Positions 7,618 through 37,739 of a DNA stretch of 44,387 nucleotides are shown here, in pieces. The stretch covers positions 1 to 44,387 of the forward strand of contig JAUIDB010000032.1 in assembly GCA_030429235.1 (NCBI GenBank). Reading direction: 5' to 3'. The DNA is from Thermoanaerobaculia bacterium (GTDB lineage: Bacteria; Acidobacteriota; Thermoanaerobaculia; Multivoradales; JAIOJS01). A model generated the notes under the pieces. That model was not told the origin of the DNA. It worked only from the letters and a program-made list of their open reading frames with translations, and searched no databases. A program made the translations under genes and the position numbers. Positions within the stretch are counted from its first letter, which is position 1, and every line of letters begins with the position of its first letter.

Positions 7618-7659
7618 TCTCTAGTCTCAACCGATCAAGACGGCTGGGGCCGCGAGATG

Positions 7660-7665
7660 TAAGCT
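7660..7665 (+). promoter_or_regulatory. -10 of the hydroxyproline operon, leaderless layout
   Basis: TAAGCT is followed by exactly six bases and the ATG at 7672, with no Shine-Dalgarno. No good -35 is found 16-18 bases upstream, which suits a promoter that needs an activator such as the divergent PAS-AraC protein. The operator must lie in 7618-7659; no clean repeat was recognised there. Confidence 0.45.
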
Positions 7666-7671
7666 GTACCC

Positions 7672-9719: not shown

Positions 9720-9994
9720 CCACGGATAGTGAACGGGTCGAGGTCCTCATCGACGGCACGGTCCTGCACGTGGCGGCCAACACCAGCGTCGCCGCCGCGG
9801 TTCTCAACCACGGCGGATCGGCCTCGCTGCCTAGTCGTCGCAGCGGCTGGACCCCGCTGTGCGGCATGGGCGTCTGCTGGGGATGCCGGCTCACCATCGA
9901 CGGTCAGGCCAACCGGCGATCCTGCCTGATCCCGGTGGCGGCGGGGATGCGGATCGACACCCAACCGAACGGTTCAGAACCGGAGGCACCATGA
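9716..9994 (+). CDS. lhpF: D-hydroxyproline dehydrogenase, [2Fe-2S] subunit
   Basis: A 92-aa ferredoxin-like electron-transfer subunit linking the two flavin subunits. The fold begins with a ubiquitin-like beta strand pair (VEVLIDGTVLHVAANTSVAAAVL). Four ligands lie in CGMGVCWGC plus a distal cysteine: C49, C54, C57 and C70, the C-x4-C-x2-C-x12-C plant-type pattern. It starts at a GTG that overlaps the previous stop by four bases, and its own stop overlaps the next ATG by four (ATGA), so the subunits are probably translated in step. A longer in-frame reading exists upstream, but it runs through the previous gene and is rejected. Confidence 0.88.
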   Translation: MTTDSERVEVLIDGTVLHVAANTSVAAAVLNHGGSASLPSRRSGWTPLCGMGVCWGCRLTIDGQANRRSCLIPVAAGMRIDTQPNGSEPEAP

Positions 9995-11262: not shown

Positions 11263-11265
11263 ACC

Positions 11266-12192
11266 ATGCGGTTCGAAGGAATCTACGCCCCGGTGGTCAC
11301 CCCGTTCATGGACGACTACTCGATCGATCACCAAGGCTACGCCCGCTGCATCGATCACCTGATCGAGCGCGGGGTCCACGGCATCGTGGTGGGCGGCACG
11401 ACCGGAGAGAACTACGCCCTCAGCCAGCAGGAACGGATCGACCAGTTCCACGAAGCCCACCGGCTGATCGACGGTCGGGTTCCCTGGGTCGCCGGCGTCA
11501 ACGACATCCGGACCGAGGAGGTCAGCGCCTTCGGGGTTGCCGCCCGCGAAGCGGGCGCCGACGCCTTGCTCCTGGCTGTGCCGCCCTACTCCCTTCCCAC
11601 CGCCAAGGAACTGGCTCTCCACGCCCTCAAGGTGGACCGCGAGGTCGATCTACCCATCATGCTCTACAACTACCCGGGCCGGTCCGGCACCGAGTTCGGT
11701 GAGGAGTTCCTCCAGCGAGTCGGCGGCAGCCGGAACTTCTGCGCCATCAAGGAGAGCAGCGGCCAGCTCGAACGAATCCATCTGCTGGCTCGGGAGTTTC
11801 CCCACCTGCAGCTGAGCTGCGGAGCCGATGACCAGGCTCTCGAGTTTTTCGTGTGGGGGGCGCGCAGTTGGGTGTGCGCGGCGGCGAATTTCATCCCCGA
11901 GGAGTCCATCGCCTTGTACGAAGCCTGCGTCCAACGCCAGGACTTCGCCACCGGCCGCAGGATCATGAAGGCCCTACTGCCCCTGATGACCGTCCTCGAA
12001 CGAGGCGGCAAGTTCGTCCAGTGCGTGAAGTACTCGCTCGAGCTGCAGGGACTCCCCGGAGGCACCGTACGGCTGCCCCTGCGCCCGATGAAGAAGGAAC
12101 TCAAACGAAGCCTACGCGAGGCTCTCGAGACGGCCCGGTCCTCGGTGCGACGGATCGTAGAATCGCAACCCAAGGAGACCTTCGATGTCTGA
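11266..12192 (+). CDS. lhpC: delta1-pyrroline-4-hydroxy-2-carboxylate deaminase (DHDPS/NAL superfamily)
   Basis: Deaminates and dehydrates the cyclic imine to alpha-ketoglutarate semialdehyde. The 308-aa TIM-barrel protein has the superfamily motifs GGTTGENYALS (about 43-53), the tyrosine in LYNYPGRSG (Y134) and the Schiff-base lysine K162 in IKESSG. On sequence alone it could be another dihydrodipicolinate-synthase-like lyase. The gene lies three bases after the dehydrogenase subunit and overlaps the next dehydrogenase gene by eight bases, which fixes the assignment. Confidence 0.88.
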   Translation: MRFEGIYAPVVTPFMDDYSIDHQGYARCIDHLIERGVHGIVVGGTTGENYALSQQERIDQFHEAHRLIDGRVPWVAGVNDIRTEEVSAFGVAAREAGADALLLAVPPYSLPTAKELALHALKVDREVDLPIMLYNYPGRSGTEFGEEFLQRVGGSRNFCAIKESSGQLERIHLLAREFPHLQLSCGADDQALEFFVWGARSWVCAAANFIPEESIALYEACVQRQDFATGRRIMKALLPLMTVLERGGKFVQCVKYSLELQGLPGGTVRLPLRPMKKELKRSLREALETARSSVRRIVESQPKETFDV

Positions 12193-13705
12193 TCTACTGT
12201 CCCGCGACGACTACCTCGCCATCGCCCAGGAAGTGCCGCGGCCGAGCAACGCCCACATCAACGGCAAGTTCACCGCCCCCCGCTCCGGGGTCGAGTTCCC
12301 CACCTTCAATCCGGCCACCGGCGAAGAGCTGACCCGGATCGCTGCCTGCGGACCCGAGGATGTCGACTACGCCGTCAGGAAAGCACGCCAGGCCTTCGAC
12401 GCCGGCGTCTGGTCTCGCCTGCCTCCCGCCGACCGCAAGGCCGTTCTGATCCAGTTCGCCAAGCTGATCAAGCGGCACCGACACCAGCTCGCCGTCCTCG
12501 AGTCGTTGGACAGCGGGAAGCCGATTCGAGACTGCGCCACCCTCGACCTTCCCGAGACCGTTCACTGCCTCGTCTGGTACGCGGAGGCAATCGACAAACT
12601 CTACGGTCAGACGACTCCCTCGGGTCACGATGCCCTGGGACTGGTGATCAAGGAGCCGGTCGGCGTGGTGGCTGCGGTGCTGCCCTGGAACTTCCCGATG
12701 CTGATGATGGCCTGGAAGGTCGGCCCCGCACTCGCCGCCGGCAACAGCGTCCTCGTCAAGCCGGCCGAAGAGACCAGCATGACTGCCCTCTACCTGGCCG
12801 AGCTGGCCACCGAAGCCGGCCTTCCCCCCGGCGTCCTGAACGTCCTCCCCGGGCCGGGCGAGATCACGGGAGAAGCGATCGGTCGCCACCCCGGCATCGA
12901 TGCCGTGTCGTTCACCGGTTCCACCGAGGTTGGCCGTAGGTTCCTCGAGTACGCCGCCCAGAGCAACCTCAAGCGGGTGACCCTCGAATGCGGCGGCAAG
13001 AACCCGGCGGTCGTCCTCTCCGATGCCGAGCATCTCGACTCCGTCGCCGAGCACGTGGTCCACGCCGTCTTCTGGAACATGGGGGAGAACTGCACCTCCA
13101 ACTCGCGTCTCATCGTCCACGCGTCGCTGAAGGAGGAACTCCTCTCCCGCATCCTCGACAAGGTACGCGACTGGCCGACGGGCGATCCCCTGGAACCGAG
13201 CCACCGGCTGGGAGCCATGGTGTCAGCCGCCCACTTCGAGAAGGTGATGAGCTTCATCGAAGGTGGCCGCGAACGGGCTCGGCTCGTGCTGGGTGGCGAA
13301 CGGATCGGCGACACCGGTTACTTCATCGCGCCCACGATCTTCGACAATGTCGCGGCCGACGATCCGCTGGCCACCGAAGAGATCTTCGGGCCGGTGCTCA
13401 CCGTGCTCGAGGTCGGAAGCGACGACGAGGCGATCCACCTCGCCAACGACACCTGCTACGGACTGCAAGCCTCCCTGTTCACTGGAAGCCTACGCAAGGC
13501 CCACCGCGCCGCGCAGGAGCTCAGAGCGGGTACCGTGACCGTCAACTGCTACGGCGAAGGCGATATCACCACCCCCTTCGGCGGCTACAAGCTGTCCGGA
13601 TTCGGCGGCCGCGACAACTCGCTCCAGGCCTTCGACCAGTACACCGAGACCAAGACGATCTGGATCGACCTCAGCGACCACGAGATCGACGCTACCCTCG
13701 ATTGA
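12185..13705 (+). CDS. alpha-ketoglutarate semialdehyde dehydrogenase (ALDH superfamily)
   Basis: Last step: oxidises 2,5-dioxopentanoate to alpha-ketoglutarate with NAD(P)+, feeding the TCA cycle. The 506-aa product is full length, with WNFPMLMMAWK (substrate/cofactor asparagine), FTGSTEVG, the general base E268 in LECGGKN and the nucleophile C303 in GENCTSN. By sequence it is closest in style to PuuC/KauB-type omega-amino aldehyde dehydrogenases, so the substrate is set by its place at the end of the hydroxyproline operon. The start overlaps the deaminase gene by eight bases. No terminator was recognised after it. Confidence 0.88.
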   Translation: MSDLLSRDDYLAIAQEVPRPSNAHINGKFTAPRSGVEFPTFNPATGEELTRIAACGPEDVDYAVRKARQAFDAGVWSRLPPADRKAVLIQFAKLIKRHRHQLAVLESLDSGKPIRDCATLDLPETVHCLVWYAEAIDKLYGQTTPSGHDALGLVIKEPVGVVAAVLPWNFPMLMMAWKVGPALAAGNSVLVKPAEETSMTALYLAELATEAGLPPGVLNVLPGPGEITGEAIGRHPGIDAVSFTGSTEVGRRFLEYAAQSNLKRVTLECGGKNPAVVLSDAEHLDSVAEHVVHAVFWNMGENCTSNSRLIVHASLKEELLSRILDKVRDWPTGDPLEPSHRLGAMVSAAHFEKVMSFIEGGRERARLVLGGERIGDTGYFIAPTIFDNVAADDPLATEEIFGPVLTVLEVGSDDEAIHLANDTCYGLQASLFTGSLRKAHRAAQELRAGTVTVNCYGEGDITTPFGGYKLSGFGGRDNSLQAFDQYTETKTIWIDLSDHEIDATLD

Positions 13706-13729
13706 CCCGGGTGCGCTCACGCCGACTGC

Positions 13730-13735
13730 TACGAT
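13730..13735 (+). promoter_or_regulatory. extended -10 before the alpha/beta hydrolase gene
   Basis: TGC-TACGAT shows the same extended -10 form as other promoters in this window. It ends nine bases before the ATG at 13745, giving a leader of only about two or three bases. No Shine-Dalgarno is visible. Confidence 0.35.
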
Positions 13736-13744
13736 CCCCCGAAG

Positions 13745-14629
13745 ATGCGGGTCGAGGCGTGGCGGGACCAGGGCAGGTTCTTCGACTTTCGCGGCCACCG
13801 AGTCTTCTACCGAGACTGCGGGGCCGCAGAGGGCGAGGTGATCCTCTGCATTCACGGCTTCCCCACCGCATCCTGGGACTTCCACGCTATCCTGCCGCAC
13901 CTGCAGCGGGACTTCCGGGTCGTGACCGCCGACATGCTCGGTTTCGGCTTCTCCGACAAACCGCGCGACCTCGACTACACGATCGCACTGCAGGCCGACC
14001 TCCAGGTGGCCCTGCTCGACCGTCTTGCCATCGAGCGCTGCTTCGTCATCGCCCATGACTACGGTGACACCGTGGTTCAAGAGCTCCTGGCCCGCGACCT
14101 CGAAGGTCGCGAGGACGGAACCAGCCCCAACGGGCCTCAGTACCTAGCGGTCGTGTTGCTCAACGGGGGGTTGTTCCCGGAAACCCACCGGCCGCGCCCG
14201 ATCCAGCGCCTGCTCGCCAGCCCCTTGGGCGGCCTGGTGGCGAGACAGTTGGACGAACGCCGCTTCCGCCGGAGTTTCCGCCGCGTGTTCGGCCCCGACA
14301 CGCAGCCTACCGACGACGATCTCGCCCAGTATTGGAGTCTCATCTCTCACCAGCAGGGGCAGCGTCTGGCCCATCGGCTCATCCGGTACATGGGCGAGCG
14401 GCGCCGGTTCCGAGACCGTTGGGTGGGGGCTCTGCAACGAACCCAGGTACCCCTCCTCCTGGTCGACGGTGCCCTCGATCCGGTCTCGGGGGCCCATATG
14501 GCCGAGCGCTACCGTGAGGTCGTCGGCAAACCGGTCCGAGTGCTGTCTGGAGTGGGTCACTATCCGCAGATCGAGGACGCACCGAATACGGCTTCTGCCG
14601 CGCGCGAATTCTTCCAGTCCCTGGCCTGA
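13745..14629 (+). CDS. alpha/beta hydrolase, MEST-like with Asp nucleophile
   Basis: A 294-aa soluble alpha/beta hydrolase. The oxyanion strand is CIHGFPTASWDF (about 35-46). The nucleophile elbow reads AHDYGDTVVQEL, placing aspartate (D105) rather than serine at the nucleophile position. The acid is probably in LLVDGALDP and the base is the histidine in SGVGHYPQIED near 272. Asp nucleophiles are found in epoxide hydrolases and haloalkane dehalogenases, and the HDYGDTVxQEL form is shared with the animal MEST/PEG1 group (family knowledge). Substrate unknown. It lies 39 bases after the hydroxyproline operon, apparently with its own -10, so pathway membership is doubtful. Confidence 0.85.
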   Translation: MRVEAWRDQGRFFDFRGHRVFYRDCGAAEGEVILCIHGFPTASWDFHAILPHLQRDFRVVTADMLGFGFSDKPRDLDYTIALQADLQVALLDRLAIERCFVIAHDYGDTVVQELLARDLEGREDGTSPNGPQYLAVVLLNGGLFPETHRPRPIQRLLASPLGGLVARQLDERRFRRSFRRVFGPDTQPTDDDLAQYWSLISHQQGQRLAHRLIRYMGERRRFRDRWVGALQRTQVPLLLVDGALDPVSGAHMAERYREVVGKPVRVLSGVGHYPQIEDAPNTASAAREFFQSLA

Positions 14630-14694
14630 AGCAGAGCGTTGTCCCCATGCCTCGACCGCTGTGCTGCCGCTCCTTCCCCTTCGCTCGACGTCGG

Positions 14695-15747
14695 CTAGTC
14701 CGTAGCGCCTTCGACCTCCGGTGCCAGTTGCCCCTCGGGCCCCACTGCCCACCGGACCACCCCGGGGAAGACTCCTGCGACCAAGCGAAGCCTCCTGGGA
14801 TCCTCCTCCGACCCATCGGGCGCAGCCAGCCACGCCTCGCGAAAGTCCAGGATGAAGCGCAGGCCGCTCTGCTCGACCACCTCCGCCGCCAGCTGCTGGA
14901 AGTTGCCCTGGTACCAGCCGTAGTTTTCCAGTCCCACTGCGATATAGAGCTGATCGAAGTCACGCAACGTCGTATGGGGATGGGTGGCTGCCTCGACGAT
15001 CGCATCGTTCACCGCGTCCCAGACCCGTGCCTTCTGCGGGTATCGGTCAGCGAGAAACTCGAACGCCAGGAAGGTGGCGAGGAACTCGTTGAGCCAGGCC
15101 TGTCGATGCCGGGTGGTGAGCTGACTGGCGTAGGCGTGGCCGATTTCGTGCAAGACCAATAAATCGGCGAACTGCCTCGCCGCCTCCTCGAAGCCGAGGC
15201 CCAGGTCGGAGAACCGTAGGCGCATCGGCTCCGACAGGCGCTCCGCCATCCGCAGGTTCAGCGCCACGATGGGGCTGTCCGAGGTGGCGGGCAGGAAGGC
15301 GATCTTCGGTTCGCCGGGAGGATGCCACAGGAAGGGGACACCGTAGGGACGAGGCACCACCGCTGCCCAATCGTGGGGGTCGAGTACCGCCAGGCTGAGT
15401 TCGAGGGGCTGGTTCAACGTCGTGGGCTCAGCAGAGTACTGGGTAGCCTCCTCGACCAGGGTTCCGAACGATTTGGCTCGAGCCTCCGCTCCCTCGCTGT
15501 AGTAGACCGTCACCTCACCGTGCCAGCTGGGCGTGCCGAGCCGCTCCACTCTAGACCGGAGGGTGTCGTCGGAAGCGGCCGCACCCTCGACGAGCGCCAG
15601 CGGGAGAACGCACAGGAACCAGAGGAGCAACCTCCACCCTCGGTTCGGTCCTGCAGATGCCACCGCTTTCGCGCCTCCGACGCGGCTGGCTCCGGTCAAC
15701 CAGCAAGACTGTGGACTCTGGACAACTGCAAAGAGGCGATCACGCAT
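14695..15747 (-). CDS. exported or membrane-anchored gluzincin-like metalloprotease
   Basis: A 350-aa protein with one hydrophobic segment (about 38-56, RLLLWFLCVLPLALVEG) after an unusual 37-residue N-terminal extension. The zinc motif HEIGH is at 200-204, and NEFLA, with E221 as likely third ligand, follows 17 residues after the second histidine as in gluzincins. This suggests a peptidase acting in the periplasm or at the surface. The rest resembles no family I can name. The ATG at 15747 is supported by GGAGGTC directly upstream. It is convergent with the hydrolase gene and separated from the monooxygenase gene by 77 bases. Whether it cuts proteins is unproven. Confidence 0.72.
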   Translation of the reverse strand: MRDRLFAVVQSPQSCWLTGASRVGGAKAVASAGPNRGWRLLLWFLCVLPLALVEGAAASDDTLRSRVERLGTPSWHGEVTVYYSEGAEARAKSFGTLVEEATQYSAEPTTLNQPLELSLAVLDPHDWAAVVPRPYGVPFLWHPPGEPKIAFLPATSDSPIVALNLRMAERLSEPMRLRFSDLGLGFEEAARQFADLLVLHEIGHAYASQLTTRHRQAWLNEFLATFLAFEFLADRYPQKARVWDAVNDAIVEAATHPHTTLRDFDQLYIAVGLENYGWYQGNFQQLAAEVVEQSGLRFILDFREAWLAAPDGSEEDPRRLRLVAGVFPGVVRWAVGPEGQLAPEVEGATD

Positions 15748-15824
15748 CGAGACCTCCTATCCGTACTGCAATGGGGCGGGCCGCGGTTCGCCGGCTAAGG
15801 CGCTTCCGACGGATCCGCTGTACT

Positions 15825-17258
15825 TCATCGACACTTCGAGATCTGAGCCGCAGCTTCTTCCCACCGTCCCGGACCATCCAAACGGTAGTGCACCGGCCGT
15901 AGCGGCCCGACGAGGAGTTGACGGGCCAGACGAGGGTGGCGCCACCAGCGAGGCTGGCAGCCGATCCTCCGCGCCAGGGCGTCCATGTAGTCGACCGGTT
16001 GGACACGCTCGAAGGCAACGCGACGCGCGCGAGCGGTGGCGACCGCCCGGTCGAGTTGATCCTTCATCTCCTCGGGTGTGGGCAGCGGGCAGCGTCCAGA
16101 GACGACTCGAGCGACCCAACGCGCCTGCAGTTCGAGTACCGGAGGGTAGGCGCCGATGACCCAGGGGACGCCGACGAAGGCCAGTCCGGGCAAGCACGGC
16201 GGGAAGACATGTTCGAAGAGGCGCGGAATCCTGCCCTCCCGTTCGACCTCTTCACGAAGGAACGGGACCGCCATCTGATACCCGGTCGCGGCCACGATCC
16301 AATCGACGGGTCGACGGTGGCCATCCAGAAACTCGACCTCGTCGCCGTGGAGTTCCTGGATCCCGGGCACGACCTCGATCTTGCCTTCGTCCAAAAGCCG
16401 GGCGAGGTCCCGCCCCGGGGTGATTCGAGCTCGTTCGAGATCAAAGGGTGGCTGGGGAAGGCCGGAGCGGGCCGGATCGACCCCCTGACGACGGTACTCT
16501 CGGACGATCAGGTAGCGCAACAGACGCCGCCGAACCCAGCTCGGCAGAGCGTTCCCGAGCCGAGTGATCTTGTGATCTGACGGCCGACCGTCGACCGTGC
16601 GAGGTAGGAGCCAGGCGCCCCGGGTCGTCGACAACATCGTGTGGCGAGCCACAGGAGCGATCTCTTCGACTAGATCGACGCCGCTGGATCCGACTCCGAG
16701 CACCAGGACCCGTCGATCAACGAAGGGATCCGGAGTGGTGTAGTCCCGGCTGTGCAGGACTCGACCATGAAACCCCTCTCTCCCCTTCAACTCAGGCCAG
16801 CGGACAGTCTGGTGCCGCCCGCTGCACACCACGACAGCTTCGAAGACCAGAGTCTCGGAAGGACCATCCTCAGACTGCACGACGAGTTCCCAGCGATCGG
16901 CTCGCCGGCGCACCGAAACCACCTCGTGGCCCAGGCGGAGGCAGGGCTTCAGCCCGAAGTAGCGACAATACTGTTCCAGGTACTGCAGAACCTCTCGATG
17001 TGTCGGGAAGTCGGGATACGACTCGGGCATCGGGTAGTCCGAGAAACCCATCGCCTGACGAGAGATGTTGGTGCACAGCGACTCGTAGGCGGGTCCGCCG
17101 CCGTCGGGAAGGCTCTTTTCGAAGCGCCAGACACCCCCGAGATGCGACGACCTCTCGAACACCACCGGTCGCAAGCCTTCTTCGCGGAGTGCCTTGGCGG
17201 TGGTTAGACCGGCCACTCCGGCTCCGATCACGGCGACTCTCGGCTTCGACTCGGTCAT
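15825..17258 (-). CDS. flavin-containing monooxygenase
   Basis: A 477-aa NADPH- and FAD-dependent monooxygenase that would oxygenate a nucleophilic N or S atom, or act as a Baeyer-Villiger enzyme. FAD motif VIGAGVAGL near residues 10-18, the FMO-type fingerprint FHGRVLHSRDY near 170, and the NADPH Rossmann motif VLGVGSSGVDL near 193. ATGYQ, the second FMO mark, appears in the C-terminal half. The last 100 residues contain several tryptophan/arginine-rich segments and no membrane segment. It lies 16 bases after the GntR regulator on the same strand, so the two are probably co-transcribed. Substrate unknown. Confidence 0.88.
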   Translation of the reverse strand: MTESKPRVAVIGAGVAGLTTAKALREEGLRPVVFERSSHLGGVWRFEKSLPDGGGPAYESLCTNISRQAMGFSDYPMPESYPDFPTHREVLQYLEQYCRYFGLKPCLRLGHEVVSVRRRADRWELVVQSEDGPSETLVFEAVVVCSGRHQTVRWPELKGREGFHGRVLHSRDYTTPDPFVDRRVLVLGVGSSGVDLVEEIAPVARHTMLSTTRGAWLLPRTVDGRPSDHKITRLGNALPSWVRRRLLRYLIVREYRRQGVDPARSGLPQPPFDLERARITPGRDLARLLDEGKIEVVPGIQELHGDEVEFLDGHRRPVDWIVAATGYQMAVPFLREEVEREGRIPRLFEHVFPPCLPGLAFVGVPWVIGAYPPVLELQARWVARVVSGRCPLPTPEEMKDQLDRAVATARARRVAFERVQPVDYMDALARRIGCQPRWWRHPRLARQLLVGPLRPVHYRLDGPGRWEEAAAQISKCR

Positions 17259-27580: not shown

Positions 27581-27610
27581 AGGGCTGCGAGGGAAACCCC
27601 TCGCAGCCCT
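27581..27610 (-). terminator. strong hairpin after the CARDB gene
   Basis: A perfect 13-bp stem, AGGGCTGCGAGGG with CCCTCGCAGCCCT, around the loop AAAC, 23 bases past the stop of the CARDB gene read on the minus strand. The following bases are only moderately U-rich (TCGTCGTTCC), so termination may be partial. Confidence 0.65.
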
Positions 27611-27632
27611 CCCTGCATCCGATCGTCGGGGC

Positions 27633-28469
27633 CTACTGGTAGGTGACCACCTTCTTGGGGCGGTGGTTCGCGTTGTTGGCATCACTGTAGTTGTTCGGCG
27701 AATAGCCGAGGCTCAGGCAGGCCTTGCCCTTCTTGGGCGTCTTGGCCTGTGGGAAGCTCGCGGTGTGCGACTGGTTTCGGCCTACGCTGGGAACGGCCTG
27801 CCAGTTCCTCGAACCACCGACCTGCGAGCCGTAACCCCCGCAGTAGGTGTTGTTGTACCTCATGAGCTTGACCTTGAAGGCGTCGCAACTGGCCGTTCCC
27901 TGGTTGGTGAATCGGACCTGGTAGGTGTACGAGGTACCGCCGGGAACCGAGCTTCCCGAGGGCTGGAGGAAGGTGGCTTCGATATCGCAGCCCTGGTTCG
28001 TGGGCGGAGGGGTGGTGGGCGGCGGGGTGTAGCAGTTCCCGGAGACGTTGGCCGTCGCCAGCCGGCTGTTGTTGTTCTCGTTGGACTCCGGCGTCTCCTG
28101 CGTGGAGTCGACCAGTCCCTGAATGGTCGCCGTGCCGGCTACCTTGAACTCTACGTCGCTGATGGTGAAGCTGGTCTGCGCCCCCGGCTGCATCGGGCTG
28201 ATGAACAGGTTCTTGGTCACGCGGTTCAGATTGGGAGTACCAGAGGGATAGGTGATCAGGGCGATGTCCAAAGTCGCATTGCCGGTGAAGGTGTCGCCGA
28301 AGTTCCTCACGGTCATCGAGACCGTGTTGCAGGTTCCGACCTTGGCCTGTCCCTGGACGCTCATGGCCGTGATCTGTAGGTCGGCGGCCGCGAAGCTGGT
28401 GGTCGGAACGAGACCGAGACCGGCGACGAGCGCGACGATCAGGGCGGGGGTTCGTGGGATTCGAGTCAT
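27633..28469 (-). CDS. secreted CARDB-domain protein
   Basis: A 278-aa exported protein. Signal peptide at about 1-28 (ALIVALVAGLGLVPTTSFAAA). A CARDB-type Ig-like domain at about 29-145 (DLQITAMSVQGQAKVGTCNTVSMTVRNFGD ... ESNENNN). A proline/threonine linker (TPPPTTPPPTN), then a second beta-sandwich with paired cysteines ending TYQ. CARDB folds act as adhesion or spacing modules at the surface (family knowledge). Ribosome site GGAG at proper spacing. It is downstream of the winged-helix/TPR regulator on the same strand with 156 bases between, so it may be a target of that regulator. Confidence 0.82.
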   Translation of the reverse strand: MTRIPRTPALIVALVAGLGLVPTTSFAAADLQITAMSVQGQAKVGTCNTVSMTVRNFGDTFTGNATLDIALITYPSGTPNLNRVTKNLFISPMQPGAQTSFTISDVEFKVAGTATIQGLVDSTQETPESNENNNSRLATANVSGNCYTPPPTTPPPTNQGCDIEATFLQPSGSSVPGGTSYTYQVRFTNQGTASCDAFKVKLMRYNNTYCGGYGSQVGGSRNWQAVPSVGRNQSHTASFPQAKTPKKGKACLSLGYSPNNYSDANNANHRPKKVVTYQ

Positions 28470-28625
28470 GGGGTTCTCCTCAGTTGGTGCTCGGGCGGTG
28501 CGCCGTCACTGAGGGCAGCCTAGAGTTCCGGCTCCAGAAGGTCTTGAGGGGCACTTCCGGCCTACCTGAGCGAATCCCTAGGGACTTCCTAGGCGCACCC
28601 TCGGCGTATTCGAAGCCGGACCCAG

Positions 28626-30680
28626 CTAGCTCGGAAGATCGGGATCCAAGCCGAAACGACGCGCGAAGGCCACGTGCCGCTCGACGGCCCGATTCCAGAC
28701 CTCGACGAAGCGGGGATGGTCGCGGACGGCTCGCAGAAGGGGATCCTGGGCCATGTAGCGCGGACTGAAGTACCCCTGGTTCAGAGATTCTTCCAGCCGC
28801 TTCAACGCTTTGTCGTACTCGTGGCACAGGACATAGAGCTGCGCTTCCTTGTAGGACATTTCACCGTCGGTCGCTTCCAACTGGTCCCGTTGTCGCACGA
28901 TCTGATCGACGATCAGCGTCGCCCCCTCCAGGTCTTGATCGAGGATCGCCAGGAGCGCCTGTGCGTAGCGGGCGAAGATGGCCGCAGGATTGGTCCGAAA
29001 GGCCGGCTCCAGGACCTCGCGAGCGCGCTCGGGGCGGTCGAGCAAGAACTCGGCAAGCCCCCGATAGTAGAGGTGCATGGCAGCATCCGAGGGGGGCAGG
29101 GTGGCAAGGAAGTCCTCGTACTCACCCAGGTACAACAGCGTGTTCGGTGACTCGCCCGACGCCCCTCGCGCGTAGTAGAGCGGGTCGAAGGCGAGCAAGG
29201 TCTGCATGGTGGCCTTGGCTTCGTTCAGGAACCCCGAGTACCGCAGGGAGTAGATGCGAGAGCCGAGAACATCCGCCTCTTCGCTGTGGTCCGGCACGTA
29301 CTCGAGCGACCGCTCGTAGGCCAGCTCCACGTTGCCCGTCTCGATCAGGATCACGCTCTCTACCAGCCAGGGCGCGATGTAGGTCGGTGCGAGGTCGACG
29401 GCCCGTTCGATCGCCTGTCGAGCCTGGTCGTAGTTCTCCGCCGAGGCGCCACAGGCCCACACCTGGTTCGCGTGGGCGATCGCCAGGAGCGTCCAGGCCG
29501 GCGGATACTCCGGATCGATCTCCAGCGATCTCTCTACGAGTTCGATGACTCCCGAGGAGTCGCAGAAGCCACCATCAAAAACGGCCTGGTGGGCCAGCAG
29601 GAAGAGACGATAGGCCGCATAGCTCCGAGGCCGACTGGGATCCTCGGCCGGCGGGAGCAGCGCGCTCCCCAGGATGTCGAGCACGCGGTCGACGACGGCG
29701 TCGCGCAGGGCGAGGAACTCCTCGAGATCCTGGCTCGAAGCCGGGGTTCGGAGGGTCAATGGTCCGAGCGGCGTGGTCAGCGCTCGTCCTCCTTCGAAGT
29801 CCACCAGTTCGAGCTCGATGCGCAACGTATCGGGTCGATCACCCCGCTCGAGGACACCGATCAGTAGCTGTTCGGCTCCGGCCTCCTCGACGTAGGTCGC
29901 CAGGCTCTCCATCGAACGGGACTCCCCGTCTCCGTAGGTCGGGGCACGCACCACCAGACCCGGTGTCTCACGGAGCCGTTGGTAGAGAAGATCGGTCAAC
30001 GAGAAGGCCACGAGTTGGAGATCGGGAGCGTGCTCGCTGGCCAGGATCGGTGACAACGCTAGACGGACATGGGCGGATCGGCCGGACTCTCCCTCCGGTT
30101 CCAGCGGATCCGGTGCGGCGGCTCGAGTGTGAACCTCGCGCGCCTGCGACCCGGGGTCTGGTCGATCCTTCGGCCGGAGGGCAAAGGATGACACCCCGAC
30201 GACCAGAAGGAGTCCGAGCAACCAGGGCAGGGCCCGCCGTCGGTCATCTCGCCCGGCCAGCAGCGGAGTCTGGCCCTCGGCCGCGGCCGATCGTTCGGAC
30301 GGCCCGGAGACAGCGGGTGCGGGCCCGTTGACCGAGGACTCGAACGCCGGTAGGGCCGCCGATTCTGAGGGGTTCTCCAACTCTCCGATGAACTGGTATC
30401 CACGACCGTGCACCGTTCTCAGGTACTGCGGCCGCTTCGAATCGTCGCCCAAGGCCCGACGCACCTCGTAGATCGCTCGGCTGATGGCCGAGTCTCCGAC
30501 GAACCTTCCCTGCCACACGGTCTCGATCAACTCGTCCTTCCCTACGACCCGATCACGATGCTGAACGAGGTAGACCAACAGCTCGGTCAACCGAGGCTCG
30601 AGCTTGATCTCGGTGTCGTCGAGGCGGAGAGAGAGCTTCTCCGGCGACAGGGTGAATCCATCGAAGAGCAGGTCTGACAT
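28626..30680 (-). CDS. CadC-like winged-helix regulator with membrane segment and TPRs
   Basis: A 684-aa one-component transmembrane regulator. The OmpR-type winged helix is at about 1-100 (LEPRLTELLVYLVQHRDRVVGKDELIETVW ... YLRTVHGRGYQFIGE). A disordered linker follows, then one membrane segment (about 151-168), then an extracytoplasmic part. That part has a TolB-N-like alpha/beta domain (about 205-320; VRLALSPILASEHAPDLQLVAFSLTDLLYQRLRETPGLVV) and TPR-like helices to the end. It would bind DNA while tethered in the membrane and sense something in the periplasm. It sits between a CARDB gene and a divergent CARDB/beta-barrel operon, its likely targets. A -10 TAAGAT is at 30696-30701. Confidence 0.9.
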   Translation of the reverse strand: MSDLLFDGFTLSPEKLSLRLDDTEIKLEPRLTELLVYLVQHRDRVVGKDELIETVWQGRFVGDSAISRAIYEVRRALGDDSKRPQYLRTVHGRGYQFIGELENPSESAALPAFESSVNGPAPAVSGPSERSAAAEGQTPLLAGRDDRRRALPWLLGLLLVVGVSSFALRPKDRPDPGSQAREVHTRAAAPDPLEPEGESGRSAHVRLALSPILASEHAPDLQLVAFSLTDLLYQRLRETPGLVVRAPTYGDGESRSMESLATYVEEAGAEQLLIGVLERGDRPDTLRIELELVDFEGGRALTTPLGPLTLRTPASSQDLEEFLALRDAVVDRVLDILGSALLPPAEDPSRPRSYAAYRLFLLAHQAVFDGGFCDSSGVIELVERSLEIDPEYPPAWTLLAIAHANQVWACGASAENYDQARQAIERAVDLAPTYIAPWLVESVILIETGNVELAYERSLEYVPDHSEEADVLGSRIYSLRYSGFLNEAKATMQTLLAFDPLYYARGASGESPNTLLYLGEYEDFLATLPPSDAAMHLYYRGLAEFLLDRPERAREVLEPAFRTNPAAIFARYAQALLAILDQDLEGATLIVDQIVRQRDQLEATDGEMSYKEAQLYVLCHEYDKALKRLEESLNQGYFSPRYMAQDPLLRAVRDHPRFVEVWNRAVERHVAFARRFGLDPDLPS

Positions 30681-30695
30681 GGGCGACTGAAAACC

Positions 30696-30701
30696 ATCTT
30701 A
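30696..30701 (-). promoter_or_regulatory. -10 of the winged-helix/TPR regulator gene
   Basis: On the minus strand TAAGAT lies 15 bases before the ATG at 30680, so a short leader is expected. No good -35 at 16-18 bases upstream. Confidence 0.35.
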
Positions 30702-30749
30702 CGCGATTCCAGACCACCTCAGGAGCAAGAACACCTCCTCCGTCTCGAT

Positions 30750-30786
30750 CCGGACAAACCCCTCAGAACTCCGGAGGACTCCCGGA
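30750..30786 (+). repeat. helically phased CCGGA direct repeats upstream of the envelope operon
   Basis: CCGGA occurs at 30750, 30771 and 30782, spacings of 21 and 11 bases, i.e. on the same face of the helix. OmpR-type winged helices bind direct repeats about 10-11 bases apart (established), so this is a candidate site for the adjacent regulator. The words are short and chance is not excluded. Confidence 0.3.
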
Positions 30787-30850
30787 AGGGAGCCTCAAGA
30801 CGAACCAACCGTTGGATGACGACACTGACGGCACCGAAGGAGGACTTTCC

Positions 30851-31333
30851 ATGATCGCCATCGTCGCTCTGAGCACCTTGCTCTTCGTAGTAGCCCCAAG
30901 TGACCACCAGCCGCCGGCCGACCTCCTCATCGAGTGGGTCACAGAGAGCCGTCACCCCTCGCCCCCGATCGAGGGCGAGAGTGGCACCAGTGTCGACGTG
31001 GGGTACCGCGTCCGCAACATCGGAGGCAGTGACGCCTACGCCGTTCTGATTCGCAGCCACTCCGCTCTCGGTCCCCTCGGCCAACCGATCCGGCTGCATC
31101 CCGGACCCAAGGCGGGTCGCGGCATCGAGCGCACCCTCCGAGTTCCGCTCGCTCGCGGCATGCGCGAGCTCTGCGTCGAGGGTCGCCTGCAAACCCTCGG
31201 CACCGATCCCCACGAAGACCCCAGCCCCAACAACAACCGAGCCTGTCGGCCGATCCGAATCGTCGACCGCCACGCTCACCAGGAGAACGGTCTGGGCTGG
31301 ACGGCCCGACAGTCGAGAGGAGTCGAACCATGA
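30851..31333 (+). CDS. small secreted CARDB-like protein
   Basis: A 160-aa exported protein with a short signal peptide (MIAIVALSTLLFVVAPSDH). One Ig-like CARDB domain follows, with the typical features ADLLIEWV, DVGYRVRNIGGSDAYAVLI and a C-terminal EDPSPNNNRAC. The ATG at 30851 is chosen over an in-frame start at 30812 because AAGGAGG precedes it and it begins the hydrophobic segment. It is the first gene of a three-gene operon; its stop overlaps the next ATG (ATGA at 31330). It resembles the other CARDB protein (27633-28469) across the regulator. Role probably structural at the cell surface. Confidence 0.75.
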   Translation: MIAIVALSTLLFVVAPSDHQPPADLLIEWVTESRHPSPPIEGESGTSVDVGYRVRNIGGSDAYAVLIRSHSALGPLGQPIRLHPGPKAGRGIERTLRVPLARGMRELCVEGRLQTLGTDPHEDPSPNNNRACRPIRIVDRHAHQENGLGWTARQSRGVEP

Positions 31334-33489
31334 AGCGGCGCATCACGATGCCAGGCAACTGCGGCAACCCCCTACTGCCTTCCCTCGCGCACTGCTCTCT
31401 CGCGGCCATGAGACACCTCGGGGCCTCGACCCGGCGGTGGATCGTCGTAGCCGCCCTGGCGATCACTCCGGCGATGGCCGAGCCTCCCGCGGCAACCCTG
31501 GACGCCTTCAGTCAGGAGTGGATCGAACCGGACCACCCTCTGGCACTCGAGCTCTCTCGCTGGCCATCGATCGAGGAGGGCAGACTCGCGATCCTCATCG
31601 ACCAGCGGGACGCGACCGACCTCTTCCGAAGGGTCGGCGCCCGCCTGGAGTACCGCCCCAATCTGCTCCCTCTACCTCGCGGAGAGTCGGAGATCATCGT
31701 CTTTCTCGTCGCGCCCGACGGCGCCTGGTCCGAGATCGCCCGCCACCCGCTGAAGGTCCTGCACGCCGGAGGATTCGAGGAGACGACGCTCCGGCCCACC
31801 CTCGACATCGAGATTCGGAGCACTCACGACCCCGAAGTCCCCGACTCCTTCGATCCCTCGGTCACCCGCTCCAAGACGACCACCAGGGGGACAGGACGAA
31901 TCGGCTTCGACTTCGCGACCGCTCGCGACGGTTGGAGCTACTCGTTCCAGTCAAGTGTCCTCGGGGTCTCGAAGATCGAGGAAGCCATCCGCTTCTCGAC
32001 CGAGGGCGAGAGCGCTCCCCGGCTCGACCTCACCAACTACCTCGTCACCCTCTCTCGAGACGCCACCCGCTTCGAGCTCGGCCACGTCAGCTTCGGCCAG
32101 AGCCGACAGCTCCTCGACAACTTCGCCAGTCGCGGCCTCGGCATCAACCTACCGCTCGGCCAGCGAGTCGTCGTCGGCGGCGCGGCGCTCAACGGTACCC
32201 AGATCGTCGGTTGGGACAACCCCTTCGGGCTCTCCCGCAGCGAGCACCGGATCTACGCCGGCACGGTCGCAGCCGAACTGCTGCCCCGACCGGGAGGGTT
32301 GCAGATCGGAGGTACCTTCCTCGACGCCTCGGTGCTGCCGCTCTCAGCCTTCGACCAGGGCGCTTTGACCGATCGCGAAGAGAGCTCGGGCTGGAGCACC
32401 CGCCTGACCACTTCGACCGCCGGTGGTCGCTTCGCCCTGCGCGGCGGGTTCGCTCGCAGCCGCTTCGACAACCCGGTCGATCCCTTCCTCGCCCAGGGGG
32501 AGGACCTGGTCGCCGTCCAGCGGGAGACGCGAGACGCGCGCTACGCCGAGGTCGACCTCGGCCTGGTGCGGGGTACGATGGGAGGCGGCCAGCCTTTCTC
32601 CCTCGATCTCTCTCTGAGGCACCAGCGGGTCGACCCGCTCTATCGATCGATCGGTGCCTTCGTCGCCTCGGACATCGAGGAGAACGGTGGCGATCTCCGC
32701 GCCACCCTCGGTCAGTTCACGGCCCAGCTGGGACACGTGAGCTCTCACGACAACCTCGACGGAATCCCGTCCGTGCTCGAGACCAAGACCCGTCGCCGAT
32801 CGGGGTCGCTCTTCCTCCCCCTCGCCGCCCTCGGTCAGACCGAGGAGGGCCGCGAGCGGCGATGGATGCCCGCCCTCAGCTACACCTACGGCCGCACCCG
32901 TCAGTTCAGCGACAAGCTGCCGATCGACGGCGGCTTCAGCCCGGGGCACCTGCCAGACCAGATCAGCCTCACTCACGGCCTGTCGATGGATTGGCAGGGC
33001 AATCTCTGGCGTCTCAACGCCACCTTCGGCACCTCTGACCAGGACAACCGCCAACCGGGCCGAGAAGAGAACGACTTCGAGGCTCGGACCGGAGGGCTGA
33101 ACCTGAGCCTGACCCCACACCCGCAGTTGGATCTCTCACTCGCGGTCAGCGACGAGCAGGCCGAGAGCCGCGCCGCCGCGGAGACCGACAACACCTTCCG
33201 CACCGGTCTGAACCTCAGCTGGCGACCCCTCCCCGGCCAATCGGTCGAGGTCATCGGTTCCCGCAGCGAGACCGACAACTCACCACGGACCCGAGAGAGT
33301 ACGTCGTCCGACTTCAGCCTTCAGTGGAGCTGGCAGTTCGCTCGCGGTGGCCCCGACCACGGGTTCTCCTCGCAGCTGACCCTCCTCTACTCCTGGCAGT
33401 CGTTCGAGTCCCGAGACCTGGTCTTCGGCTTCGCAGACAGCACCGACCGATGGACCCTTTCGGCCGGACTCAACCTGAGCTTCCACTGA
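31330..33489 (+). CDS. large outer-membrane beta-barrel protein
   Basis: A 719-aa exported protein. A 27-residue extension precedes a signal peptide (about 28-50, ending TPAMAEP). An N-terminal Ig-like domain (about 55-155; LAILIDQRDATDLFRRVGARLEYRPNLLPLPRGESEIIVFLVAPDGAW) is followed by a long series of alternating strands with aromatic girdles and a last strand ending WTLSAGLNLSFH. This is typical of an outer-membrane barrel that ends in an aromatic residue near the C-terminus. By length it could have 22 to 26 strands. Ribosome site GAGGAG supports the ATG at 31330. It may export, anchor or display its operon partners; no ligand is evident and it lacks a TonB plug. Confidence 0.72.
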   Translation: MKRRITMPGNCGNPLLPSLAHCSLAAMRHLGASTRRWIVVAALAITPAMAEPPAATLDAFSQEWIEPDHPLALELSRWPSIEEGRLAILIDQRDATDLFRRVGARLEYRPNLLPLPRGESEIIVFLVAPDGAWSEIARHPLKVLHAGGFEETTLRPTLDIEIRSTHDPEVPDSFDPSVTRSKTTTRGTGRIGFDFATARDGWSYSFQSSVLGVSKIEEAIRFSTEGESAPRLDLTNYLVTLSRDATRFELGHVSFGQSRQLLDNFASRGLGINLPLGQRVVVGGAALNGTQIVGWDNPFGLSRSEHRIYAGTVAAELLPRPGGLQIGGTFLDASVLPLSAFDQGALTDREESSGWSTRLTTSTAGGRFALRGGFARSRFDNPVDPFLAQGEDLVAVQRETRDARYAEVDLGLVRGTMGGGQPFSLDLSLRHQRVDPLYRSIGAFVASDIEENGGDLRATLGQFTAQLGHVSSHDNLDGIPSVLETKTRRRSGSLFLPLAALGQTEEGRERRWMPALSYTYGRTRQFSDKLPIDGGFSPGHLPDQISLTHGLSMDWQGNLWRLNATFGTSDQDNRQPGREENDFEARTGGLNLSLTPHPQLDLSLAVSDEQAESRAAAETDNTFRTGLNLSWRPLPGQSVEVIGSRSETDNSPRTRESTSSDFSLQWSWQFARGGPDHGFSSQLTLLYSWQSFESRDLVFGFADSTDRWTLSAGLNLSFH

Positions 33490-33521
33490 TGACGGCCACA
33501 CCCTCAGCCAAAGGAACCACT

Positions 33522-34793
33522 ATGCGCAACGCCAGCCGACACCTCCTCGGGATCCTGATCATCGGAGCCCTCACCGCCGTCACCGCCTCCGCCGAAATCC
33601 GTCGCGACCCGACCGGGGTCAACGTCAACTCGCAGGGAGCCACCTCGGTGTTCATCACCTTCGGTGGCCTCGCCGACCAGGAGCCGGTCGAGGCCACCTG
33701 GTGTGGAGAGCTGATTCCGGCGACGCCCGACATCGGCTTCAAGTGCGATCCGACCACCCTCTTCGGGCGTCTTCCCATCCGCTTCGACCAGTCGGCCCTG
33801 CGTGACTCGACCTTCACCGACATCATGTCGATTCCGCCGTCGGTTTCACGCCGGGCCTATCAAGCCGCCGCCGACGGACAGAGCTCGGAGTTCTTCTACG
33901 TTCGCCGCTTCCGTAGTCTCGTCGGCGGTCCCGACGAGTTCGTCTTCGTCACCTGCCGGTTGACCGGCGGCGGGGCTCGGGTACCCTTCGCGCTCCTCGA
34001 CGTGAGGCTCTCGTTCGAGGACCCCGCCCCTCTGCTCGCCGTCGGAACCGGGGGCTCGCTCCCCACGTTCACTGCCGTCATCGCCTACAACGGCACCGGC
34101 CGGCTCCGCGGCCGCTGGGAGGTCGTGCGCCCGACCGACGACCCGCCGAGCTCGCGCGACCTCCTCACCGAGGCGTCGTTGCCAGCCGAGGAGCGGCCGC
34201 TGCAGCGAAGATTCACGCTGGTCGACCGATTCAACGTGTTCCTGCCTCCGACCGGCCGGGTCACGCTGCCAGGACCCGCGCCGGAGCTCCTCCCCACTGA
34301 AGCCAACGGTCTCTACCAGATCCTGCTGCGCATCGAGGCCTCGGACGACAAGGAAGCGGATTCCAACCTCGCCAGTGCCGGGGCCGGTGAGGGGGTCGTC
34401 CACTCCGGCGGCGTCGCCGGTTTCCCGATGCCGGTCCTCCGCTACTTCGTCGGCTCGGTCGATGACGCCGGCGCCGCCCTCGTGGCCGAAGAGCTGCGGC
34501 TGCTCGAGCCGGCCGAGGGGGCGAGCCCGTGGGGCGAAGGGTCTATCGTCTTCTCCTGGACCACCACTCCAGGAGTGCTCCTCTACGAGCTCCAGATCCG
34601 CACTCTCGACGACCGCGAGGTCCACTCGGCCGTGGTACAGCAGGGCATCGGACAGTACCTGGCCCCGTCCTTTCTCACCGAACTGGCCGAGCCAAATCTT
34701 CTCCGTTGGCGAGTCCGTGCGATCGGTCCCGGGGGGCGCGAACTGGCAGTCACCGACTGGCGGGCGCTGAGTACCCTCGAGACCTCGGAGTGA
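33522..34793 (+). CDS. secreted Ig/FN3-like protein, third gene of the envelope operon
   Basis: A 423-aa exported protein with a signal peptide (about 1-24, LLGILIIGALTAVTASA). The middle contains beta-rich segments with isolated cysteines (ATWCGELIP, FKCDPTT, VTCRL). The C-terminal 100 residues read like a fibronectin-type-III repeat (GSIVFSWTTTPGVLLYELQIRTLDD ... NLLRWRVRAIG). The ATG at 33522 follows AAAGGA. An alternative ATG at 33489 overlaps the barrel stop (TGATG) and would add 11 residues before the signal peptide. Probably an envelope or cell-surface partner of the barrel. No family name can be given. Confidence 0.78.
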   Translation: MRNASRHLLGILIIGALTAVTASAEIRRDPTGVNVNSQGATSVFITFGGLADQEPVEATWCGELIPATPDIGFKCDPTTLFGRLPIRFDQSALRDSTFTDIMSIPPSVSRRAYQAAADGQSSEFFYVRRFRSLVGGPDEFVFVTCRLTGGGARVPFALLDVRLSFEDPAPLLAVGTGGSLPTFTAVIAYNGTGRLRGRWEVVRPTDDPPSSRDLLTEASLPAEERPLQRRFTLVDRFNVFLPPTGRVTLPGPAPELLPTEANGLYQILLRIEASDDKEADSNLASAGAGEGVVHSGGVAGFPMPVLRYFVGSVDDAGAALVAEELRLLEPAEGASPWGEGSIVFSWTTTPGVLLYELQIRTLDDREVHSAVVQQGIGQYLAPSFLTELAEPNLLRWRVRAIGPGGRELAVTDWRALSTLETSE

Positions 34794-35577: not shown

Positions 35578-37164
35578 CTAGTCAGCCGAAGTCGGCCAGG
35601 CACAGCCCAGGAGCTCTGGTTTGCCGCTCTCGCCCTCCGAGAAGAAGACCATCATCCCATGGTCCTCGTCCGTGATGGACTCGATCGAGCTTGCGAGCGC
35701 CGCGATGCAGTTGCTGTGCGTGACCATCACATGATTGCTGTCGTCCTCGAGAGCCTTGGAGACGACCTGAGAGATCGTCTCTCGACAACCATCAAGAATA
35801 GAGCCGTCATCGAGCGCAGCGAACCTCGCCGCAATCTGCAAGCCGGACATCGCGTTCGCCATTTGCTGGGTCCGACAGGCGGGACTTGCAACCGGAGTGG
35901 CCCAAGCCCCAAGATCCGTCAGAAGACTCCGCACGTTCAAGGCCTGCTGACTGCCTTTCAGGCTAAGGATCCGGTCCATTCCCTTGCAATCGGAGTCACC
36001 CGCGAAGCCCTTGCAGCTCGTATCGCTCGGCGCACAATCCGCTCCGTGGCGGACCAGAGTCACGAGGTTCTTGTTCTGGGCTGCGGCTACGACCTTGTTC
36101 TGAAGCTCCGCAACCGGGAGAACATCTGAACAGCTAGCCGAAGCACTCCGGCTGCTCGTAGGTTTCGAGGTGGGGCTAGCAGGCTTGGCCGGGCTCGCCG
36201 GAGTCGTTGTGTCCTTGGGCTGAGTATCGTCGTTGTCATCCTCCGCCTTGCTCTTCTTCGCTGCAAAGGGAGCCGAGTCGAACCGAAACGCAATTCCCAG
36301 GAAGAGATTGGGTCGATACACAGAGTCGACCAGGCTGTCCTCCGCCACGGTTTGCTCCAGTCTCTCCCCCTGCTCGTACCGTCCCCGCAGCCTGGTCTGC
36401 TGATGCACCGCGAGACCGACAGTGAGTGTCACGTTGCGATAGTGGGTCCAGCCCCACCCTGCGAACACCGACGGAGTCTCGAGGTCGTAGCCAAGACCGG
36501 CGAGGAAGCTGTTGCGCCAAGAGCGATTCTCCTGGCCAGCCGGCGTGAAGCTGTACAAGAGAGACGGAACGAGGTCGAGATCGGAATCGCTCGGCCTGCG
36601 TTCTTCCTCGATGAGGAAGAACGTCTTCTCGGTGGCGGTGGTGTTTCCACTCGCGTCCGTCGCGCTGGTGGACTCCTTCATCTCGTCGAGAAAGTAGCCA
36701 CGGTTTCGATCCGGCACGAAAGTAAAACCGTAGGTGAGATTCCACGTCCCGACCGGCGCCTTCAACGTCAGCGTCCAGCACTTGCGCGCGGCGTTGTCCG
36801 CCAATCCGCTCCTACACACGGTCACCTTCTTCTCTTCACCACGCCGGACCTCGACTGGCGACTCGAGCCTCGAGACCGTTAGGTCCCGAAAGGTCTCGTT
36901 CAGCTGGGCAGCGCACTCGGGGTTCTTCTTCTCGGCCGAGGCGAGTATTCCGGCGAGTTCGGTCTCCGACTTGGCGGTTCGTAGGGTACTCACCAGGCCT
37001 TCCACTTCCGCTTGACAACGCACATCTGCCTGGTCTGCGCTCAGACTCAGGGGAGGAATCGGCACGATCGCCGTGGCCACGCCCTCGACCCAATACCGAC
37101 CACCGCCGGTCTTCGGAATCGCATGGCGCAGAATGATCGTGTACGAGCCAGGTTGCACTTCCAT
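35578..37164 (-). CDS. beta-rich/barrel-like protein fused to a histidine phosphatase domain
   Basis: About 528 aa from an ATG at 37164. The first 330 residues are beta-rich, with segments (SLLYSFTPAGQ, FLAGLGYDLETPSVFAGWGW, VTLTVGLAVHQQTRLRG, YRPNLFLGIAFRFD) that read like an outer-membrane barrel. A low-complexity Thr/Pro/Ser linker follows. The C-terminal domain has the phosphoglycerate-mutase-like motifs LVRHGAD (about 370), GSQQALNVRSLL, SPACRTQQMANAMSG and VTHSNCIAAL. No signal peptide is present at any visible start: the frame continues upstream to a TTG at 37257, beneath the divergent gene. The N-terminus may thus be cut off or mis-sited. Role unknown; an extracytoplasmic phosphatase is possible. 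Confidence 0.6.
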   Translation of the reverse strand: MEVQPGSYTIILRHAIPKTGGGRYWVEGVATAIVPIPPLSLSADQADVRCQAEVEGLVSTLRTAKSETELAGILASAEKKNPECAAQLNETFRDLTVSRLESPVEVRRGEEKKVTVCRSGLADNAARKCWTLTLKAPVGTWNLTYGFTFVPDRNRGYFLDEMKESTSATDASGNTTATEKTFFLIEEERRPSDSDLDLVPSLLYSFTPAGQENRSWRNSFLAGLGYDLETPSVFAGWGWTHYRNVTLTVGLAVHQQTRLRGRYEQGERLEQTVAEDSLVDSVYRPNLFLGIAFRFDSAPFAAKKSKAEDDNDDTQPKDTTTPASPAKPASPTSKPTSSRSASASCSDVLPVAELQNKVVAAAQNKNLVTLVRHGADCAPSDTSCKGFAGDSDCKGMDRILSLKGSQQALNVRSLLTDLGAWATPVASPACRTQQMANAMSGLQIAARFAALDDGSILDGCRETISQVVSKALEDDSNHVMVTHSNCIAALASSIESITDEDHGMMVFFSEGESGKPELLGCAWPTSAD

Positions 37165-37247
37165 GACCGAGCCGGCGGCACAACACAAACGCGTCGAAAC
37201 CCAGGCTCCGCTATGCTCCTTGCCCAATGAAGCGGGAGGAACCAACC

Positions 37248-37739
37248 GTGACGGCAACTCCGGAACGTCGTGCCATTTCCAACGACGCGTTCCGAATCGC
37301 CCCCCCCAGACTGCGTCGAGCCCGCCAGGACCACGCCATCGGATCGATCCTGGCCATCATCCTCTGTGTCATCGTGGGACGAGTCCTGGTCGCCAGCGAT
37401 GGTCCCTACAACCAGATACTCCTCGGCGCCGTGATCCTCGGAATCTTCGTGCTCGGCTTCATCCAGTTTCGCGGACACGCGCGCCTGGTTCGCCGGAGTC
37501 AACAGCACCAGGTCGTGGTGACCGACGACTGCATTCAGTTCCACACCGAAGGGGAAGAGTCCACGCTCCTTCTGACGGACATCCTCCGGGCGGAGGCGCA
37601 GAATCGCTGGCGCGCCGGGCCATCTCTGCTCCTCCACTTGAGAAACGGGCGCTTCGTTCGGCTCGAGGGCTACGAGAACCAGAAACGGCTGAACGAACTA
37701 GTGGCCGAACGGTTGCACCAACCAGTAGACCGAGACTGA
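37248..37739 (+). CDS. membrane protein with bacterial PH-like domain
   Basis: A protein of about 163 aa with two membrane segments (GSILAIILCVIVGRVLVA and LGAVILGIFVLGFIQF). A C-terminal region of about 85 residues resembles a bacterial pleckstrin-homology domain (VVVTDDCIQFHTEGEESTLLLTDILRAEAQNRW ... GRFVRLEGYENQKRLNELVAERL). The GTG at 37248 is preferred: GGGAGGA at 37234-37240 lies seven bases before it. An ATG at 37227 would add seven residues. A TATGCT at 37212-37217 may be the -10. Such proteins are often involved in membrane stress or are of unknown function. It is divergent from the barrel-phosphatase gene, with which it overlaps if that gene starts further upstream. Confidence 0.68.
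   Translation: MTATPERRAISNDAFRIAPPRLRRARQDHAIGSILAIILCVIVGRVLVASDGPYNQILLGAVILGIFVLGFIQFRGHARLVRRSQQHQVVVTDDCIQFHTEGEESTLLLTDILRAEAQNRWRAGPSLLLHLRNGRFVRLEGYENQKRLNELVAERLHQPVDRD

Follow-up and report, generated by a model that had tools for sequence, protein, structure and literature searches.

The locus considered here raises the question of whether a membrane-bound regulator, two secreted proteins with CARDB or CARDB-like domains, a large beta-barrel and an Ig/FN3-like protein, all encoded side by side in the genome of a Thermoanaerobaculia bacterium, form one functional unit and what such a unit would do for the cell. An initial annotation, made from the sequence of the region, had read these genes as an undescribed surface-display or adhesion locus controlled by a membrane regulator. 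We investigated this notion in the window, by which we mean the whole stretch of 44,387 nucleotides that was analysed, and in related and more distant genomes.

Genes of the locus

All five open reading frames of the initial annotation are present (Table 1), and the coupled starts it had noticed at 31330 are real: the small CARDB-like gene and the barrel gene overlap in an ATGA. Since the same overlap precedes the barrel in the related locus L010, the barrel start is probably right. The Ig/FN3 gene begins at the ATG listed in the table (possibly at 33489) and not at the GTG at 33324. In agreement with the earlier reading, the locus shows no TonB plug, secretin or ATPase.

Table 1. Coding and regulatory features of the locus (positions in the window)
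Feature	Position	Strand	Basis
Secreted CARDB protein, 278 aa; N-terminal CARDB domain and second Ig-like domain	27633-28469	-	Pfam
Regulatory element, copy before the CARDB gene; 71 bp from the start codon	28541-28583	-	Core search of the genome
Regulator, 684 aa; OmpR-type winged helix, one TM segment, TPRs	28626-30680	-	Pfam, hydropathy
Regulatory element, copy before the operon; 49 bp from the first ATG	30760-30801	+	Promoter alignment, core search
Small CARDB-like secreted protein, 160 aa, ATG start	30851-31333	+	'RNIGG...' pattern, conservation
Predicted outer-membrane beta-barrel, 719 aa	31330-33489	+	Model, fold search, family alignment
Secreted Ig/FN3 partner, 423 aa	33522-34793	+	Family profiles, model, adjacency to the barrel

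Two CARDB proteins had been proposed, and one of them is confirmed by Pfam: the 278-aa protein matches CARDB (PF07705) with E 1.5e-13 and 51.2 bits against a cut-off of 22.7. Relatives of this protein, with a variable number of domains, are encoded within the corresponding locus or next to it in L008, L010, L011 and L012, and it is a candidate for an exported or displayed subunit. The 160-aa protein has no Pfam match, CARDB included, and is CARDB-like by pattern and conservation. Its own signal peptide has a weak n-region and those of its relatives, which are found upstream of the barrel in the genomes G001, G004, G014 and G015, are canonical.

Elsewhere in the window, a gene at 35578-37257 (-) encodes a protein of 559 aa that ends in a PmrG-like histidine phosphatase domain (NCBIfam E 6.4e-15, below the cut-off), and the long domain in front of the phosphatase part matches no family.

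A conserved pair of barrel and partner

The barrel was searched against Pfam, NCBIfam, PHROGs and the sequences of the PDB, both singly and as a family profile, and no convincing match was obtained. Membership in a known porin family, which would have counted against the initial annotation, was thus not seen in these collections. When 20 members of the barrel family were compared with Pfam at E up to 10, no porin family, OprB/OprD, TonB plug or receptor appeared, and the generic barrel models gave weak matches to single members only (Autotransporter, E 0.055; OMP_b-brl, E 0.2). The family alignment displays a BAM-type aromatic pattern at the C-terminus. The AlphaFold2 model, built from 4 aligned sequences, has a mean pLDDT of 57 and contains about 25 long strands from residue 154 to the C-terminus, with residues 420-690 mostly at 75-95 and an unreliable N-terminal half at under 50. 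The long antiparallel strands of the C-terminal half agree with the description as a barrel. The protein probably sits in the outer membrane, and its N-terminal domain looks Ig- or E-set-like, judging by sequence pattern only.

Comparison of the barrel model with known structures by VIA-align placed MtrB first, with Z 16.8 and an rmsd of 3.4 over 276 residues. The matches after it were mostly porins and TonB receptors, whose Z was within 1-3 of that of MtrB and whose rmsd was larger; MtrB is therefore favoured by rmsd and not by Z alone, and it is also the nearest structure to the model in curvature. Foldseek returned SlpA, maltoporin, FimD, MtrB and LptD, all of them weak.

The partner protein is similarly nameless: searches against the same four collections, singly or as a profile, gave no convincing family match. 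Its conserved N-terminal part of about 300 aa constitutes a new sequence family and is followed by a C-terminal FN3 domain at about residues 320-420; in the window the protein has no lipobox. The model contains three beta-sandwich regions, the last of which is a clear FN3 domain, and its VIA-align matches are generic FN3 domains (best Z 9.4, for residues 312-419). The first 300 residues hold nearly all invariant positions of the family and are poorly modelled, and VIA-align gave nothing useful for them. A mobile origin was considered and rejected, as tblastn with the partner gave no match in either the plasmid or the phage collection.

The check that the barrel's neighbourhood be conserved had been suggested together with the initial annotation, and its outcome is clear: other genomes, too, carry these genes together. 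In 29 of 29 loci, 24 from the main clade and 5 distant (L053, L054, L055, L114 and L146), the barrel gene lies directly 5' of the Ig/FN3 gene on the same strand; in two genomes the contig breaks inside the locus and the adjacency was read from the contig ends. These loci come from Acidobacteriota, from the phylum of a MAG labelled Calditrichota, and from Pseudomonadota. With the barrel as query, relatives turned up in the genus of the window's bacterium and in four further families of its order, as well as in the Calditrichota-labelled MAG and in a Burkholderiales MAG, and within the phylum it is carried by 16 of 396 genomes. An independent search with the Ig/FN3 protein led to the same loci. 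This protein gave 3 clear hits and 1 distant one among 300 genomes of the Burkholderiales order, 2 clear hits among 82 genomes of the Caldithrix MAG's phylum, and 3 clear plus 1 distant among 398 Pseudomonadota. The partner is more strongly conserved than the barrel (mean distance 0.50 versus 0.65), and in the main clade the pairwise distances of barrel and partner correlate with r 0.63 (Mantel p 5e-4, uncorrected for the species tree), a value to which species ancestry contributes. The locus is a real unit, and with barrel and Ig protein side by side in each of these loci its arrangement goes far beyond what chance would give. Barrel and Ig/FN3 protein make up its true core, an obligate and unnamed pair. 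In L051 (genome G388) the pair is broken by a stop in the barrel and a frame change in the partner, which could be a decaying locus or an assembly error.

The genes around this core change. Within the taxonomic order to which the window belongs, they are the genes of the winged-helix/TPR regulator, the small CARDB-like protein and the CARDB protein (L008, L010, L011 and L012/L087), the last of which differs among these loci in how many Ig-like domains it has. CARDB proteins are also encoded near the pair outside this taxonomic order, in L042 (Acidobacteriota, E 6e-27) and beside the distant Pseudomonadota pair L146 (E 7e-10). In other loci small secreted beta-rich or Ig-like genes recur by the pair: three in L052, one or two in L045 and L046, and five in tandem in L049, where they occupy 4776-7667 directly upstream of the barrel. 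The small secreted neighbours in L048 are of coiled-coil type. Two other secreted families are common to different phyla, one to L044 and L115 and one to L044 and L112. The gene directly upstream of the pair was called secreted in 11 of 21 loci versus 27 of 110 remote genes (p 0.017); the calls follow a crude signal-peptide rule, and adding by eye the CARDB-like genes that it misses raises the count to 16 of 21. The contrast is weak when the three nearest genes on each side are counted (41 of 114 versus 27 of 110, p 0.08). No small secreted gene is evident beside the pair in L009, L016, L055 and L144, thus the pair may act alone.

Several further neighbours deserve mention in their own right. 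L112 encodes, at 9696-10334 directly upstream of the barrel, a secreted coiled-coil protein in which a stretch of SLxLKS type is repeated, resembling a trimeric beta-helix needle. A secreted protein of 1830 aa directly follows the distant pair in L114 (9782-15274); it has no Pfam match and is a possible giant surface cargo, and its assignment as an RHS protein was dropped because Pfam does not support it. CHAT-TPR proteins are encoded within about 8 kb of the pair in G194, G067, G378, G350 and G240, and in L145 (Pseudomonadota, 10498-16503) a CHASE2-cyclase, a DUF928-like gene (score just below the cut-off) and a signal-peptide-bearing CHAT-TPR gene precede the pair, with the CHAT-TPR gene immediately 5' of the barrel. 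The caspase-like peptidase is in this way associated with the barrel across phyla, in five Acidobacteriota loci and in L145.

Regulator and promoter element

The regulator had been described as a membrane-tethered winged-helix/TPR protein, and this description is correct. Pfam finds Trans_reg_C (E 2.9e-18) with the winged helix at residues 23-97 and TPRs at about 380-600, and hydropathy gives a single TM segment at residues 150-168. The best NCBIfam match of the N-terminal part is CadC (E 2.7e-22), whose 79 bits stand against an equivalog cut-off of 400. The architecture, with an OmpR-type winged helix, one TM segment and a predicted periplasmic sensor in one chain, fits the ToxR/CadC-like one-component type. 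The TPR region is presumably periplasmic and may sense the state of this compartment.

When both promoter regions of the window were aligned with their counterparts in the congener G001, they proved to have in common an element of about 42 bp, CCCTnnGnAnTC-N12/13-GGAAG-N4-CCTCAAGAC, which faces its gene at both promoters. The copy before the CARDB gene has the form CCCTnnGnAnTC-N13-GGAAG-N4-CCTCAAGAC, and the copy before the operon contains the near direct repeats CCTCAGAAC/CCTCAAGAC and ACTCCGGAGG/ACTCCCGGAAGG. Direct-repeat target sites are expected for OmpR-type winged helices. In L008, the locus of G001, the spacing was read from the sequences, with the first bases CCCT taken at ttCCCT in both copies. 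The exact core GGAAGN4CCTCAAGAC occurs twice in the 4.85-Mb genome, both times at these promoters, and in G001 it likewise occurs exactly twice, at the two matching promoters; in both genomes the regulator gene stands between the two copies. A scan of the whole window with a tandem-repeat pattern that was too strict gave no matches. In G004, G014, G015 and G036 there are one-mismatch matches only; none of them lies at the locus and their level, G004 aside, is near that of the control, and the element is therefore a feature at the level of the genus. Since the element is unique to the two promoters flanking the regulator gene, the sequence indicates a dedicated local regulon, and we infer that the regulator binds this candidate element.

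The claim that a membrane regulator controls the locus gains strong, if indirect, backing from this unique element; in other lineages the regulator is swapped for other signalling proteins. Relatives of the regulator are present at the locus in G001, G004, G014, G015 and G388. A Ser/Thr kinase with TPRs lies upstream of the barrel in G036, a further kinase-like gene of G036 has a relative in G381, and the locus of G084 comes with a response regulator of LuxR type and a propeller histidine kinase. We therefore rejected the view that the winged-helix/TPR regulator is a fixed component of the system, both because other groups use a different kind of regulator and because the own genome encodes a paralogue without the pair (G000:C40:84253-86199, or L086 7242-9200; about 35% identical). 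The regulator is a lineage-specific part, replaced elsewhere by Ser/Thr kinase, two-component or CHASE2/CHAT genes. The paralogue itself lies beside housekeeping genes and is closer to the locus regulator of G015 (45%) than to that of the window.

Possible function and relation to known systems

Our leading reading, which we hold tentatively and at somewhat below an even chance, is that the genes form a self-regulated unit for the assembly of surface proteins. The subunits and the Ig/FN3 partner would cross the inner membrane by Sec, and the partner would then dock on the periplasmic N-terminal domain of the barrel or cap the barrel at the surface. The wide barrel would pass or anchor the small CARDB or Ig-like proteins, which would end up standing on the cell surface; in known proteins, barrels of the width predicted here house or pass proteins. 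Through its TPR region the regulator could register, for example, a subunit that has not been exported, and its binding to the element would switch both transcripts.

One would argue that the genes are unrelated and neighbours by chance, given that the regulators and the small secreted genes differ between lineages. However, barrel and partner stay together in all 29 loci and three phyla, and the operon and the CARDB gene have a promoter element in common; chance is refuted for the pair, and for the locus we give it next to no credence. A divergent chaperone-usher system is hardly more probable. The order of small Ig-like subunits, barrel and large Ig protein does resemble CfaB-CfaC-CfaE, the gene order with which such systems are compared here, and FimD and the chaperones DraB and FimC are among the Foldseek matches. 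Nevertheless, the 20 members of the barrel family gave no usher match (PF00577) at E up to 10, hhalign comparison of the profile with FimD/ElfC gave a probability of 0.3%, and 18 of 19 carrier genomes contain neither usher nor PapD_N (PF00345), for which the E. coli controls were positive. We therefore rejected membership in the classical chaperone-usher group, given the results for family and profile and the absence at genome level. The sole PapD_N-positive carrier has this gene on G084:C221, beside a separate classical usher.

Two other readings deserve more weight. The locus could be an uptake system, with the barrel as an unusual kind of porin or receptor, the Ig/FN3 protein as its polymer-binding partner in the periplasm or at the surface, and the CARDB proteins as accessory carbohydrate-binding or surface proteins. 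The porins and TonB-dependent receptors that follow MtrB in the fold comparison speak for it, and a barrel with a tightly conserved partner recalls SusCD-like logic. Against it, the barrel has no TonB plug, its family reaches no porin family beyond the single weak barrel matches, the partner in the window lacks a lipobox, and genes for enzymes, inner-membrane transporters or catabolism do not recur next to it in the loci compared; we regard uptake as unlikely, if not strongly so. Still less probable is an envelope scaffold, in which barrel and partner form an S-layer-like or adhesive outer-membrane anchor and the CARDB proteins leave by another route and bind from outside. Its Ig-rich partners and the two top Foldseek matches, the SlpA/SDBC barrels of Deinococcus (weak, TM 0.2), fit this picture, but the coiled-coil and SLH parts of SlpA are not seen, and a scaffold agrees poorly with one or two copies per genome and a sparse distribution.

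Returning to the assembly unit, the initial proposal is partly supported and stands in outline, as neither of the two findings that would have spoken against it was made; display or adhesion is the use that we would suggest for the locus, and the regulator is no universal part. A more far-reaching version is possible and on the doubtful side: an undescribed outer-membrane export or assembly pathway in at least three phyla, sparsely distributed, in which a wide barrel and its Ig/FN3 partner would build or move CARDB or Ig-like subunits without chaperone, ATPase or POTRA, with cargo and regulators interchangeable. A literature search for such a locus found no paper, and to our knowledge hardly any surface system has been studied in soil and sediment bacteria. 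Two nameless families that are always co-encoded in three phyla, often with small Ig-like secreted genes adjoining, are a strong lead to an unknown surface decoration, and thanks to its compact regulon of one regulator, two promoters and one element, the locus can readily be tested in a surrogate host.

Among known systems, MtrB/PioB of the Mtr complex (6r2q) is the best fold match of the predicted barrel: MtrB is a wide barrel that sheathes a protein. It has 26 strands, and our model shows about 25 with an unreliable N-terminal half. However, the 20 family members do not match PF11854 at E up to 10, there is no match to PDB sequences, we noticed no cytochrome genes next to the pair in the loci that were inspected, and MtrB is without the N-terminal Ig-like domain that this barrel family seems to possess. 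Chaperone-usher pili (FimC/FimD and the CFA/I type) similarly combine a large barrel with Ig-like secreted subunits in a similar gene order, whereas here the usher domain is missing, as is the PapD chaperone in nearly all carriers. Two-partner secretion (type Vb) also relies on one barrel with one dedicated partner, and its genes are accompanied by CHASE2/DUF928/CHAT clusters in cyanobacteria, which recalls the CHASE2, CHAT and DUF928-like surroundings of L145. Contrastingly, Pfam finds no POTRA, ShlB/FhaC barrel, TPS or filamentous haemagglutinin domain in either of our two families, and the partner is a conserved Ig/FN3 protein of 420 aa instead of a large variable beta-helix. The regulator has the OmpR-type winged helix, single TM helix and, as predicted, periplasmic sensor of the ToxR/CadC type, but it carries a TPR sensor region in place of the CadC periplasmic domain and scores below the CadC equivalog cut-off. 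Finally, the 278-aa protein is a clear member of the CARDB-domain proteins (PF07705), with the difference that here it is tied to a particular barrel pair and regulator.
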